DNA of 64,000 bases, taken from positions 248,001 to 312,000 of the forward strand of contig NW_019029005.1 of the NCBI RefSeq assembly GCF_002105155.1. The letters are read 5' to 3'. The position numbers were made by a program, and so were the translations under genes. This stretch comes from Lobosporangium transversale (taxonomy: Eukaryota; Mortierellomycota; Mortierellomycetes; Mortierellales; Mortierellaceae). Below, one piece after another: positions 45,755 through 60,267 of the stretch (the stretch's first letter is position 1; each line of letters opens with the position of its first letter). A model generated the notes under the pieces. The model saw only the letters and a list, made by a program, of their open reading frames with translations. It ran no database searches and was not told where the DNA came from.

Positions 45755-46992
45755 GATTTGTGGCAATGGCTTTAATGAAAATAAATGGCTACTGAAAAAG
45801 AAAAAAAAAAAAAAAAAAAGCTTTTCTACATTTAAGACAACAATTCCACGTGATAGTTATTTGCCACCAATCAACTATCCCTTAAACCGTCAACCTGGCA
45901 AATTTGCCATTATAAATGGGCTTAAAATCCAGCAATTCATGGGCATTGCCTTGAAAATTTATTTCGATGTCGAAATAAATGACCGAAAACTAAACTGTCA
46001 TGGAGCTATCCTGGCTTCTTTATCTGTGCCAATAAAAAACTCTTGAAGGCTTTCGCATGACACTAGCATCCTCTTGGGGGCCATTGTGTTGTTTATTTAT
46101 TGACTGGTGTAATAGAAGTGATAATATTTGCCATAGTATCGACTTGAAAGGAGGGCAATCTGAGTTGATTCATTCTACCGCACCATAGAGCTTGCTCGGC
46201 AAGACTTGATTGTCACATCATTTGCTTCTTCGTCTTCTGTGTTCCCTGGGTTGGTAAACACTGCTAATAGAGTTTGTTGGGCTTGTTGAAACCAGAGGGA
46301 ACCACAGCAACATATCAACCCAAGATGATACAAATATCTCTGTTGGAGTGAGTGCTGAACTGTGTGGTTCAGATGTAGTGGACATAAACGGCGAAAGGAT
46401 GCATCGAAAGGATGTGAGCGGTTTATGAGAGCAAGGAAGAAGGGGTTGGTATACCTGTTAAAGTCCTTGGCAAGAGAGCATGAGTAGTAGTTGTGATCAA
46501 AAGTTGATTTCGGTGAGTCCGCATAACAATGGTATAGTTTCTAGACCCTATCTTCCACGTACAGCATTGCATTATTGGTGTTTTCAGACCTGGCACTAAT
46601 CATGCGAGGTATTTCTTTTTCTGAGGATTCCTTGTGTTAAACGGCCAGACAGAAAGCTTAAAAGACATACAGACACAACGGTGAAAAAAATGTATGTGAG
46701 CAAACAGTTGCTGTGTTTATTTGTTGTCTGCACATGCCTTCTTTCATCGCGGGCTTTTTTTTTTCCTTTTTTGTTCGTCAATCACTGTGTGCACGAATAA
46801 GCAGCTGAAGCATCTCCTTGGTTTCTGTACATGTGTAGACACATTTTACATCGCGGCGTCTTATTTATTTTCTGCAATTCCAAAACACAAAACACAAGCT
46901 TTTTCCATTGGTGCCTCCAGAAGAAATAAACAAACTTTATTTTGGTGGCCACTCCACAATCATGCCATGGTTATAACAATCCCTAGGAAAGG
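45755..46992. other. intergenic region upstream of the Fanzor locus
   Basis: This is the 5' flank of the Yar1-like gene (minus) and should contain the left boundary of the Fanzor-bearing segment. I looked for terminal inverted repeats matching the right side (50750-51700) and found none by eye. A local imperfect inverted repeat (GTTCCCTGG ... CCAGAGGGAAC) sits at about 46241-46302. Confidence 0.4.
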
Positions 46993-47217
46993 ATGAAACG
47001 CGTCGGTATTAATCTCGCTTCTGTAATTCTAAATGCATATATTTTGGCGATTGGTATCAACTATCAAGTTCGCACATACACACACCAAACGACCGCCAAA
47101 AACCACCACTCTCGCTTCTGCTCTCCATCCATCCACAAGGCGCTGCGCAATATCACCATTAACAAGGCACCGTCCAGTAAGAAAGGGTGCTTAGCTAGCT
47201 TTTACTCCAAGCAATAA
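46993..47217 (+). CDS. possible degenerate XPG-N-like segment of the PIN nuclease
   Basis: A 74-residue frame reads KRVGINLASVILNAYILAIG and later NITINKAPSSKKGCLASFYS. In FEN1/XPG enzymes the N-domain has a similar layout (I-D-A-x-x-x-[IL]-x-x-x-L-x-A-I, then a D-G-x-P-x-x-K motif). The two catalytic Asp positions here would be Asn. The match is weak. The link to the I-domain at 47530 needs an intron or indels across 47218-47480. It may be unrelated. Confidence 0.2.
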   Translation: MKRVGINLASVILNAYILAIGINYQVRTYTHQTTAKNHHSRFCSPSIHKALRNITINKAPSSKKGCLASFYSKQ

Positions 47218-47484
47218 GCACATCACCTATCTCCGCCATTGATGCCGGAACCTGAGAGCCAACGAATATCTCTGCTTTAACGCAATAGTACTGGGGCTGT
47301 TGGAGCAAAGAACGACATCTGAACCCATTCTCTGATAAAAAAGACTTTTTTTTTCTTTAGTTTGTTACCTTTGACAAGGATATAATCATCAAGTCATATC
47401 TGTCAATGCATTTATTACCCCTGTTCAAAATTATAAATCTTCTTTTACTCATTAAATTCCTCACAAAGCACAAAGCAAGGGCCA

Positions 47485-47503
47485 GTGCAAACAAAAGAAA
47501 CTG

Positions 47504-47534
<31 letters not shown>

Positions 47535-50500
47535 TATGGACGCTTTGGAGAACAATATGAGCACCTTCGAGAGAAATTCTCGGAGTGGGGTATGGACTCG
47601 TCCTCAAGTCATGAGGCGCATCCAGAAGGGTCTTCGAGAAGTCCACACCCTGAGCGTCCAGGACAAGGATCAGCTGGCAACAGGCCTTAGTTCTGTCTTC
47701 GATGTTGTCTGTGTGCATATGAAGCGGACCCATGCATAGGGTGCCATGATGAGGAGAATGATAGGATCGTGATATCCCAAGACTCTGATTTTTTTGCGTA
47801 CGAACGAGTCTGCTTCCTAGTGCGACCCCTTCCGCACCGTAGACGGAAGTTTGGGTTTACGACGTAGACAACGTTATCCAAGCACTAAGACTGCCATCAC
47901 ACGCGCATCTGGTGTTATTCTGTGCCATCGCAGGCAATGACTACTCAAGGAACCTCGAGACGTTAGGCCCGATTATAATCTTCGATTAATTCGAAAGGTT
48001 GCGTGGAACGAGAACTACTAATAAAATGCTTCGGGCTACCTAAGGGAAGCTAGAAGGTGTTGGGAAGGAACGTAGCCTCTGAGGAAGGCCGTTTCAGTGT
48101 AGCTCTCCGCATTTTTACTTCCGGCCATCAAACGTCGGCCCAAGCGTTACCATCGAACAATGAGTTCGATAACTTCAAGCAGCGTCTACTCAATGGAAAG
48201 GATCTTCGCCATAGAATGGCTCAGCAAAGGCGAGCGCAGCGCCGCAGAACGTAAGAAAGCTCAAGCTATAGTTTTTGGCCTTGAAACCAACGTCCCCAAT
48301 ACTAATCGTTAGTCCCTTTCTTGAATAATGTAGAGGCGTACCATCATTCTATATAGCGGAAGGGTCACATAGGAACCAGTTCCGGCCCATCTTTTCTGAC
48401 AAGGCGAGCATATTGAATGGGCGCACAGTTGATATCAGTAACTGCCGTCAGCACGATAGGCCGGGCCTTAAGCATCCACCACGTCGGAGAAAGGCAAAAA
48501 AGAAGCAACAGAAAAAACAAAAGCGGAAGCACAAAGGCAAGAAGCCCCACAGGGCTAAAAAAGAAGGTGCACCAATTAGGAACTTGAAGGATGCTACGAA
48601 GGTTGATCACAGCTACAGCAGTAAGCACCCTATCAAGGCCTTAACAATTGGGTCCCTTAAGGCCTCCATGGCAAGGAAAGGCGGACTGGACGCAGATGAA
48701 AGGGATAGTATTGCAAGCCAGATCCGAGGGGCAGTTGTTGTCCTCAACCGACTACGCCGCTATGCATACTGGGCGGATTGCCTTGGACATTGAGAGGATC
48801 ATGCGGTTACCAGGGGCAGCAAAGTCGAGGAAAAAGGCACTGGACGAGGTCTTGGATAGCAATGATTATTCCTTCCGTCTCGCCACCCTTCTTTTGAGTG
48901 GTCAAGGTGGCCCCAATTCAGCTTACGCGAGGGCAAAAAAACAAGGAAAGGCGGTAGAAACGCCCACATCACCTCGCTTATGAACATTTCAAGGCCACCA
49001 CTGAACTTTCCCCAATAAAGGAATAGACATCACATTGGGGGACGTCCAAGGCTTTGATCCCAAAAAGATCACATTTCCAAGAGCGTCAGACTTACTAATG
49101 GGCCAAGTACAGACATCATTAAGGCAGCACTACAGGAACGCAATGGTATAGCTTGTGTAGGGTATTTTCATGCATATTCTGCAATCAAATGCTCTTTATT
49201 CACACCTTTTTTTTTTTTTTTTTTTTTTTTCTTAGTTTGATGTCGAGAAAACAAACGAAGATATGAGCGACATTGAGTTTTTTTTGCGGGAGAACAAAAA
49301 AGTGAAAAAATACTCAGACTTTCCTACGCCCCCTGGTCACCCGGGTATGTGTATCTGTCTGAACACGCCCTAGTTGACATCCTCTGGGCGAACGAAGATA
49401 CCAAGCAGCTGCTGGAGCGTATTCTGCCTCTCAATAATCTTCCAAGACTGCAATGTATGAGTGTGTACAGGGAACAAAAGGGGTTTTGATACAGGCTCTC
49501 TTTTGTGACATTGGAGGTGATCGCATGGTTCGTGGATATCAAGACAAAGTATCCCTGCAGTCACAGGACAAAGATCTAACTCGGTTCAAACTCAAAGGAA
49601 CGATTTCTACCAACGGTCTAGTTCTGAATCTACTTGCCTATGACACAACCCAGACGAAGAGACAGCAGCAGTCTGACGTAGATGAAGAAGCCCCAGCCAA
49701 GAACTGGAGCTTTCTCAGGGATTTCTCAACACGACGTGTTCAAAGGCGGCCGGTGAAGACCTAACAGATGAAGACTACGCAAACATAAACTGGAAGAGGA
49801 GCTCCAAGCTGCTTGAAAACGTTGAGCTCACATTCAACAAACCAGGGCGATGCCCATCCGCAAACACCACAACTATCGTCGGATGTGATCCTGGTATTGT
49901 TAACGCCCTTACGTTTTCCTCGCTGGACCTCACAACCCTAACTTGCGGCAAACGGTAAAGGTGAGAAGCAGGTTCTTGTACCTCCCTGTCCTCCGCTTCA
50001 ATCACCTGTTGAACAAAAGGAAGCGTGAAAAAGGAATGATTGAGGTTGAGAGCGCCATCCCTGTGTTTGGAAGGGATACGTATAATGAGTACTTTCAATG
50101 GATGAACGAGGAGTCTCAGACACAGACAGGATCAACGAATTTGGATGTGCTTCAAGAGTTCTACGAGTCCAGATGGCACCTGAAAAAAAAATGGGACCTA
50201 CGAAAGGCTCAACGAGCTACGTTCGACTACGCGGTACAGCGAGTGTTGAAGATGCTTGGGGATAAAGGAGTACTTGTCGTCGGCCTAGGGTCCTTTGAAA
50301 GTAGTAAAGGAGTTCCCAGCAAGCACACTGCTATAACGAGACATCTTGTCACACAGGTATGGCTTTTTTTAAAAAAGTAAAGAAAGCTGGAAAGCCATAA
50401 ACCCTTGCTAATAAACGACTGCCATTTGAAACGCTTAGGTCAAAGCACGAGGACACTTCGCTGTAGGAGCGCACGAATTTTACACCAGCGCCCGCTGTCC

Positions 50501-50749
50501 CCGACCCCTCTGCGATAGCTTTTTAGAGACGGTGTACCCTCGCTCTAAATATTGCGGACATGTAAGGTATTCTTCGACCGTGACGCAGTAGGGGCGGAAA
50601 ACATCGCAAGAATCGGTCTTGCTCAAATTGAGAGACAAGAGAGCCTGCAAAGTACAAGCCCACGGAAGAGTCGCCTGCTCCGGCTGCAAAGCGCGCACGA
50701 CGCTAGACACAAGTATTTGGGTGCCGGCACACCCACAAAAAATTTGTAA
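47485..50749 (+). CDS. FEN1/XPG-like (PIN) nuclease region joined to a Fanzor (TnpB-like) RNA-guided nuclease
   Basis: Region 1 (about 47530-47980) matches a FEN1/XPG I-domain: EADPCIG (47721), VISQDSDFFAYERV (47771), YDVDNVIQALRLP and AIAGNDYSRNLETLGP (47930). Region 2 is a linker (SNNEFDNFKQRLLNGKDLRH) spliced at 48251-48333 into GVPSFYIAEGSHRNQF and a very basic stretch (KKKQQKKQKRKHKGKK). Region 3 has helices (FPRASDLLMGQVQTSLRQHY), an intron 49146-49235, then FKLKGTISTNGLVLNLLAYD. Region 4 is RuvC: IVGCDPGIVNALTFSSLD (Asp 49887-49889), VLVVGLGSFESSKGVPSKH, an intron 50357-50438, VGAHEFYTSARCP (Glu 50475-50477), a zinc ribbon, and FFDRDAVGAENIARI (Asp 50582-50584). The xEFYTSxxCP...C..C...RDxxxAxNI order is the TnpB/Fanzor hallmark. 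All three introns keep frame, so it is a spliced eukaryotic gene. Several one-base shifts interrupt it. Fusion into one protein is inferred from collinearity. Fanzors cut DNA using an adjacent guide RNA. Confidence 0.82.
50357..50438 (+). other. spliceosomal intron between RuvC strands of the Fanzor domain
   Basis: Donor GTATGG follows HLVTQ; acceptor GCTTAG precedes VKARGHFAVG. A CTAATAAAC-like branch site lies about 30 nt upstream of the acceptor. It joins the RuvC-II side to the conserved Glu segment in frame, showing the gene is adapted to a eukaryotic host. Confidence 0.8.
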
Positions 50750-51700
50750 GTTCTGTTTATTTTCGTCTCCTGTATCCATCCTCTCTAATCTTTTGCCCCT
50801 GAATTTCTGGACTAACTTTAAAAACCGTACAGATCAAACAGATAATGCCATCTGGATTCTACACAAGAAACAATACGCTCATAAACTAAAGTAGTGATAG
50901 GCCAATGCCTCGAGGGCCGTCTTGCCAAAGCCAGACTGATATTCACGGCGGAAGAACACAGTTGAGCTTCTGATCCGCCCGTTAGTTTGTTGCTGGTATC
51001 CATGTCTAGTATTTTGGGTGAGGAACTCCAGGATAGAACTATTCAATTATTTATTTTGTATCCTCAACCCTGAGCGAGTTCAAAATCTGAATATTGGAAA
51101 AGATAATCGCTCAAACCAGGAGTGACAATTTCAGAGAGTGATCGAACCCATACAGAAGTCAAGCCAGTGGAGCGGGAACGATGTCAAGTACGCGTGGGAT
51201 GAAATCCTGACAGAGTTGGTGAGGTTTGGAAATGTACGGGTCACGCAACGACTTGAGTATAGGACAGTATATTATGCACTTGGCCAGCACATCCGTCTAC
51301 AAAAATTCTCGGCAGTAGGTGTTAGCTGCGTGCCAGAATGTTGCATAAAGCTCTTTTTTTTTTTTTTTTAGTGGACATTCCTGCTGTGAGCAGTAATAAC
51401 AAACTGAGGGTAACATTGACCAGCTAGATTTAAAAGGCAAGGAAGGGAGTGGCTGTTGGATAGAGAGCAGAGATGGTACAAAGAATGAAATCGGCAATAT
51501 TGATGGGAAATCATAGGAGTTAGACCTCTACAGAGGCTACTGATGCACATTGGATGGGTCTCCAGCTTTTATATCTCTTCTCACCAAGCTGTATTTCATA
51601 AGCTTATACCCTTCCTCGAAAGCAACTAGACAATAAGGATTAGATGGATATCCCTGACCGCTCACTCTTTTTTCTGAAGGAATGTCAGGACCGAGCACAC
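50750..51700. other. region downstream of the Fanzor gene; possible guide-RNA (omega RNA) and right end
   Basis: In known TnpB and Fanzor loci the guide RNA overlaps or follows the 3' end of the nuclease gene. This stretch has little coding character, except a frame at 51138-51371 (IEPIQKSSQWSGNDVKYAWD) with no recognised domain. I could not identify a terminal inverted repeat or target duplication by eye. Confidence 0.3.
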
Positions 51701-60194: not shown

Positions 60195-60267
60195 CGCTCC
60201 TGGGTGGCTTGAACCACCAACCTCCTGATTAACAGTCAGACGCGCTAACCAATTGCGCCACAAGAGC
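60195..60267 (-). tRNA. tRNA-Asn (anticodon GTT), no intron
   Basis: The 73-nt minus-strand sequence folds as a cloverleaf. The acceptor stem is GCTCTTG/CAGGAGC (one U-G pair), the D stem GCGC/GCGC with loop AATTGGTTA, and the anticodon stem TCTGA/TCAGG with loop CTGTTAA (anticodon GTT). The T arm is GGTGG/CCACC with loop TTCAAGC, and the discriminator base is G. A-box and B-box promoters are intact. It decodes AAC/AAU. Confidence 0.97.

Follow-up and report, generated by a model that had tools for sequence, protein, structure and literature searches.

A multicopy mobile element of Lobosporangium transversale is predicted to encode an XPG/FEN1-type nuclease fused to a Fanzor

Does a single spliced gene of Lobosporangium transversale (Mortierellaceae) encode two different nucleases? 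The question is raised by positions 47485–50749 of a 64,000-nucleotide stretch of its genome (the window, meaning the whole stretch that was analysed), where the initial annotation had placed a FEN1/XPG-like nuclease collinear with a Fanzor. We found this region to be part of a multicopy mobile element (Table 1), whose family we call family 1; two divergent families in the same genome are designated families 2 and 3. Assembled from copies better than that of the window, the family 1 gene has four exons and approximately 1,080 codons, with a complete XPG/FEN1-type nuclease (exon 1) followed by a basic linker, a helical region, and a Fanzor RuvC/zinc-ribbon part. The proposed architecture is supported by exons that are open in other copies, by the conservation of intron positions, by a relative in a second genus, and by profile matches, and this is very probably a single gene with an N-terminal XPG/FEN1-type nuclease and a C-terminal Fanzor in one predicted polypeptide.

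A DNA search of the species' own genome (42.7 Mb in 127 contigs; 40 of 107 candidates scored) with the 3265 bases of the region as a query returned at least 85 matching pieces. Fifty-five long pieces, which are 88–100 per cent identical, merged into at least 40 genomic places. Six copies were extended upstream; the full-length element is approximately 5.75 kb (five of these copies measure 5.4–5.8 kb and one measures 5.0 kb).

Table 1. Features of the family 1 element copy in the window (positions in the 64,000-nucleotide window)
Feature	Position	Strand	Basis
Mobile element, window copy	45874..50844	+	Alignment to full-length copies
Non-coding 5' portion, in which no long reading frame was seen to be conserved	45874..47510	+	Frames of six full copies
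Deletion junction at a poly(A) run, ~790 bp missing	47511..47532	+	Alignment to C2 copy
Exon 1 remainder, XPG/FEN1-type I region (EAD, SQDSD, GNDY), small gaps	47533..48250	+	
Intron 1, phase 2, site kept in family 2	48251..48333	+	
Exon 2: PSFYIAEGSHRNQFRP segment, Lys/Arg-rich linker, helical region	48334..49145	+	
Intron 2, phase 0, site kept in family 2	49146..49235	+	
Exon 3: Fanzor core, RuvC-I, DPG at 49887-49895	49236..50356	+	
Intron 3, phase 0, site kept in family 2 (family 2 acceptor is our reading)	50357..50438	+	
Exon 4: relocated Glu (EFYTSARC from 50475), zinc ribbon, RuvC-III DRD (50576-50584)	50439..50706	+	
Family stop codon TAG, frame-shifted in the window copy	50704-50706	+	
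Intron-like signals GTAAGT ... CTAAC ... CAG in the 3' non-coding end	50746..50832	+	Read from sequence

Exon 1 of the full copies begins with MGLKSFFKLV, and we take its acidic positions to be the catalytic positions of FEN1/XPG nucleases. Exon 1 matches Rad2 (E = 1.5e-4), the XPG part of family 2 matches ERCC5 (5e-4) and FEN1, and an XPG profile matches both archaeal FEN1 (1.6e-5) and the host's own FEN1 (1.2e-5; probability of 81 per cent). In five aligned rows (four divergent members and the host FEN1), M1, G2, D34, D87, E161, D182, and D235 are invariant. The first Asp of the DxD motif is present in all rows but P0003, a protein of Mortierella sp. GBA43, which has Asn at this position and NDH for NDY. 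In every family, the XPG domain is located at the very N terminus and starts with Met-Gly, a placement that fits the need of the FEN1/XPG family for a free N terminus.

Measured against the Pfam cut-off for XPG_I (24.9 bits), one family 3 locus scores 25.3 bits and family 2 scores 13.9 bits, which is below the cut-off, whereas neither family 1 nor P0003 has a Pfam XPG match. A search of solved sequences with P0003 found neither XPG nor Fanzor, and the XPG piece of family 3 has no solved relative at E 0.01. A genome scan with Pfam XPG_I, which is independent of our queries, marked 11 places: four look like the host XPG, FEN1, EXO1, and another XPG-type gene, while the remaining seven comprise four paired with a Fanzor (on C13, C59, C93, and C49) and three unpaired (on C117, C116, and C38). 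Separately, L065:1246-1731 scores 25.9 bits with XPG_I, over the cut-off, and no Fanzor was found within 5 kb downstream; perhaps this locus is a relative without the fusion.

We consider it probable that both nuclease sites are active. The best-surviving competing explanation is that the XPG-type domain acts on RNA or as a nucleic-acid clamp, serving guide maturation or DNA positioning, and that the Fanzor cuts all the DNA. The substrates of FEN1-type nucleases are branched nucleic acids that have a free 5' end, and the guides of TnpB and Fanzor nucleases need defined ends; both facts would suit such a role, as would the loss of one catalytic Asp in P0003. However, four divergent members and the host FEN1 all retain Met1-Gly2 and five acidic positions, as expected of a DNA nuclease, and we therefore regard a role confined to RNA or clamping as rather unlikely.

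The predicted C-terminal half, in which we recognized DPG, E-x6-C, TS, a zinc ribbon, and DRD, is a Fanzor by the criteria given in the available portions of two publications. These are a catalytic Glu that precedes the first Cys of the zinc finger by six residues (PMC10711439) and the pattern D-X(125,275)-[TS][TS]-X-X-C4 zinc finger-X(5,50)-RD (PMC3627910). The RuvC-I motif is DPG in families 1 and 2, P0003, and another protein, P0002, and DLG instead in family 3. The relocated Glu stands six residues before the first zinc-finger Cys (EFYTSARC, EYYTSAKC, EYFTSARC, and EYYTSKKC); the P0003 model ends before this Glu and the zinc ribbon. The D-to-TS distance is 172 in family 1, 175 in P0002, and 213 in family 2, and RD is present in all three. 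Our check of the pattern relaxed the first-knuckle spacing to CX2-4C; the first zinc knuckle is CX4C in family 1, P0002, and family 2 and CX2C in family 3.

With Pfam PF07282 (Cas12f1-like_TNB; cut-off of 26.3 bits), family 2 (29.7 bits) and family 3 (41.7 bits) score above the cut-off, family 1 (25.9 bits) and P0002 (25.7 bits) fall just below it, and P0003 has no match. SpuFz1 is the nearest solved sequence, weakly (E of 0.15 and 0.052, from P0002 and a profile), and exons 3–4 of family 1 matched nothing at E 10 or better among solved sequences. AlphaFold2 models of P0003 and P0002, made from only four alignment rows, are of low confidence, with mean pLDDT of 45.7 and 38.5.

In the window copy of the element, the right end is ACCGTACAGATCAAACAGATA and the left end is near ACTATCCCTTAAACCGTC. 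The right end reads ACCGTACAGATCA(A)ACAGATA in 25 of 27 loci with the anchor, and the sequence beyond it mostly differs; the left end reads TATCCCTT in 27 of 32 rows (among them both the window copy and its C50 counterpart), with a variant in the others. No long terminal inverted repeat was seen at the ends of the copies compared, and a reading of the frames of the six full-length copies picked out none that resembled a transposase. Searches with the joined flanks of nine copies found no empty site: besides the source copies they gave a duplicate of one right flank on C14 and some short partial matches, and no match crossed a junction. Target duplications were not established at the element copies.

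A non-guided mobility enzyme, the sole enzyme of its element, in which the Fanzor fold binds or cuts the ends and the XPG domain processes strands, would be consistent with the lack of both a noticed transposase-like frame and long inverted repeats. Yet the protein retains the RuvC and zinc-ribbon features of guided Fanzors, and the available text of PMC3627910 describes some Fanzor elements that have no transposase and whose ends resemble those of a known superfamily. We consider such an enzyme quite improbable and favor a guided Fanzor.

Families 1 and 2 also have intron-like signals (GTAAGT, CTAAC/CTAAT, and CAG/TAG) between the stop codon and the right end. The acceptor lies 12 bases before the right end in the window copy of family 1, and a similar layout follows the stop codon in family 2 (L040 and L037). 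Overall, the putative acceptor is situated 12 to approximately 40 bases before the element end, and the next exon would enter the flanking DNA. In family 3, such signals were not seen by eye. The folding of the right-end RNA was no better than that of shuffled sequences (z of 1.18 and -0.41).

The motifs and the three introns named by the initial annotation were located exactly where it had put them, with GT at 48251, 49146, and 50357 and AG ending at 48333, 49235, and 50438, and these splice sites recur in other copies. Exons 1, 2, and 3 of family 1 measure 1037, 814, and, when unshifted, 1125 nt, and a single frame is kept; full copies start with ATG in exon 1, exon 4 runs to a stop after KRARR, and the introns are 80–97 bases long. 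The copy on C66 is open for 984 spliced residues across three exons, through the XPG domain and RuvC-I, and that on C69 has exons 3 and 4 open down to the stop; none of the 11 distinct family 1 copies that were spliced is open from start to stop. The pN/pS ratio is 0.55 in exon 1 (nine copies) and 0.49 in exon 3 (14 of the 21 copies with the RuvC-I frame, namely, those longer than 300 codons), values that are only supporting because open frames were chosen and frameshifts may inflate pN.

A survey of relatives for the same domain order, which the initial annotation had suggested, recovered it in the two divergent families of this genome and in the Mortierella sp. GBA43 protein. Family 2 (L037, L038, and L040) has the same domain order and the same three intron positions as family 1, with approximately 31 per cent identity in the XPG part and, for the individual exon pieces of the Fanzor part, roughly 37–67 per cent. 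It includes 14 full-length XPG exons with open frames. All three family 2 copies that were spliced have a frame break in exon 2, and the intron phases of this family were therefore read from local frames. Family 3 (L067 and L068) has the same order, with stops between the pieces. Among the matches listed of the protein searches (two of which were limited to 8000 scored candidates), the annotated, predicted P0003 (998 aa) has XPG, linker, and RuvC-I in one protein, the L. transversale gene models P0001 and P0004 each continue from XPG into the linker and the helical part, and P0002 has linker and Fanzor. Viral contigs scanned with P0002 yielded seven matching stretches, none of them a relative. 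In profile searches, which had likewise been suggested, the pieces of the window copy have no Pfam PIN/XPG match and reach Cas12f1-like_TNB only at E = 0.13, whereas one family 3 locus is over the Pfam cut-offs for both XPG_I and Cas12f1-like_TNB. Because both domains recur in divergent families, chance is excluded.

Across the genome, 104 XPG rows collapsed into 81 loci and 136 exon 4 rows into 129 loci. A Fanzor exon 4 lies within 5 kb downstream on the same strand at 64 of the 81 XPG loci, compared to 0, 2, and 2 of 81 in the controls and approximately 0.6 expected; these pairs are not independent events, since many of the loci are copies of one another by descent. No XPG was detectable upstream of 65 of the 129 Fanzor loci. 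The ones that were inspected are the window copy, which is deleted; L039, a derivative without XPG; and L070–L072, which are apparently truncated. The latter three score over the PF07282 cut-off, have no XPG found upstream, and on visual inspection resembled relatives of family 3 that are truncated at the 5' end.

Some loci combine pieces of different families. The 5' part of family 2 elements contains a fragment of approximately 550 bases that resembles the Fanzor exon 3 of family 1, lies antisense, and is approximately 86 per cent identical (L040:1016-1563 and L037:1042-1589). In L039, a family 2 Fanzor 3' part adjoins an internally deleted family 1-like piece, and there is no XPG exon. Eleven other places share the truncated match and stop codon of L039 (the only one that was read), which suggests that this type of derivative has spread.

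Could the two nucleases instead be neighboring genes of one element, separately transcribed and merely predicted as one? The database gene models are, after all, predictions. However, the phase-2 intron 1 between the XPG and Fanzor parts is conserved, and the spacing of the two parts is regular, with a median of 2249 bases. The PSFYIAEGSHRNQFRP residues just past intron 1, which P0003 retains, precede the first Met of exon 2 in family 1 and should therefore be read on from exon 1. In addition, a genomic deletion in L027, apparently between short repeats, has taken intron 1 and some coding sequence and leaves 512 residues in one unbroken frame that runs from the XPG domain into the linker. Two separate genes are thus highly improbable, and we retain the single-gene reading.

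The window copy alone would not prove the fusion; the case is carried by the other copies. Its loss of approximately 790 bp consists of three neighboring gaps of 658, 103, and 28 bases relative to the C2 copy, and it has removed the start codon together with approximately 103 N-terminal residues (the N region with two catalytic Asp), which is why only the I-domain had been visible to the initial annotation. Over 4911 aligned bases, the window and C2 copies differ by 54 mismatches and 37 gaps, of which 23 are single-base and three make up the large loss. Such a deleted and gapped copy could pass for a decayed repeat with chance motifs, but other copies have open exons and relatives exist, both of which refute this explanation.

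Decay alone is also a doubtful source of the frameshifts in the window copy. The large deletion is common to contigs C48 and C50, and C50 aligns with single-base gaps only. On either side of a patch (window positions 48018-50447), the two contigs match without a difference, for 2033 bases before it and 1802 bases after it, but within it there are 28 mismatches and 22 single-base gaps between them. The pattern suggests consensus error in repeats, and gene conversion is possible. Both contigs carry the same insertion, and parts of them seem to be the same region represented twice. Elsewhere in the window, a tRNA-Asn (GTT) at 60195-60267 on the minus strand is the sole match to Rfam (at the gathering threshold) or by ARAGORN.

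In this Fanzor-carrying mobile element, the RNA-guided cut of the Fanzor is probably coupled in cis to a structure-specific nuclease. RNA-guided cutting by RuvC is established for known Fanzors. The Fanzor part would bind an RNA made at the right end of the element, with flanking DNA serving as the guide, and its RuvC site would cut matching double-stranded DNA in the manner of known Fanzors. Kept at that site, the XPG part would cut a branched or displaced strand arising from the R-loop or from repair copying. This activity would be 5' flap or junction cleavage, and it would help the element to be copied into the cut site or to stay there. We propose a role of the fusion protein in homing and repair more tentatively than the coupling itself. 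More speculative still, and on balance doubtful, is a natural two-nuclease homing machine aided by the right-end splice signals: after a guided double-strand cut, the built-in flap nuclease would remove the displaced or flapped strand and repair would copy the element, while the splice signals of families 1 and 2 would help make the guide-bearing RNA by joining the last bases of the element to flanking sequence.

Several known systems share parts of this arrangement. Fanzor1 nucleases, such as SpuFz1 of Spizellomyces punctatus (PDB 8gkh), have the same RuvC DPG, relocated Glu, zinc ribbon, and RD and are likewise carried by fungal transposable elements. However, the sequence match to SpuFz1 is limited to the E-values given above, and the proteins described here differ from Fanzor1 in the CX4C first knuckle (families 1 and 2), in DLG (family 3), and, in all families, in the N-terminal XPG-type nuclease. 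With the FEN1/XPG (Rad2) nucleases they share the Met1-Gly2 start, the N and I regions, and the acidic active-site positions, but the XPG part is only 18–20 per cent identical to the host FEN1 and is here fused to a RuvC nuclease, borne by a mobile element, and multicopy. As described in the section of PMC3627910 on them, the MCi-2 Fanzor1 elements of Mucor circinelloides are similarly multicopy, without recognizable inverted repeats, and near-identical in their 3' part with variable 5' parts; they are reported, however, with target duplications of 11–12 bp, and one subfamily carries a partial Crypton transposase. An XPG domain is not mentioned in that section.

An N-terminal XPG-type domain on a Fanzor is likewise not mentioned in the available portions of PMC3627910, PMC10432273, and PMC10711439, and terms for extra domains or fusions do not occur in that of PMC11423790. 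The accessible part of PMC11071296 calls viral candidates 'Fanzor flap endonuclease homologs' and describes no fusion. Among openly licensed papers, we found no report connecting Fanzor with XPG, a PIN domain, or Mortierella, and in the literature so searched we found no earlier report of an XPG–Fanzor fusion.

How TnpB and Fanzor nucleases help their elements to spread after the cut is an open question, and the fusion bears on it. A lineage appears to have joined a structure-specific repair nuclease to a Fanzor and to have kept both sets of active-site motifs over a long divergence. With such a fusion, the fate of the cut strands can be tested directly, and nature provides a design for a guided cutter that processes the ends by itself. 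The pairing of the two nucleases may reveal the means by which such elements achieve their own cutting and copying.
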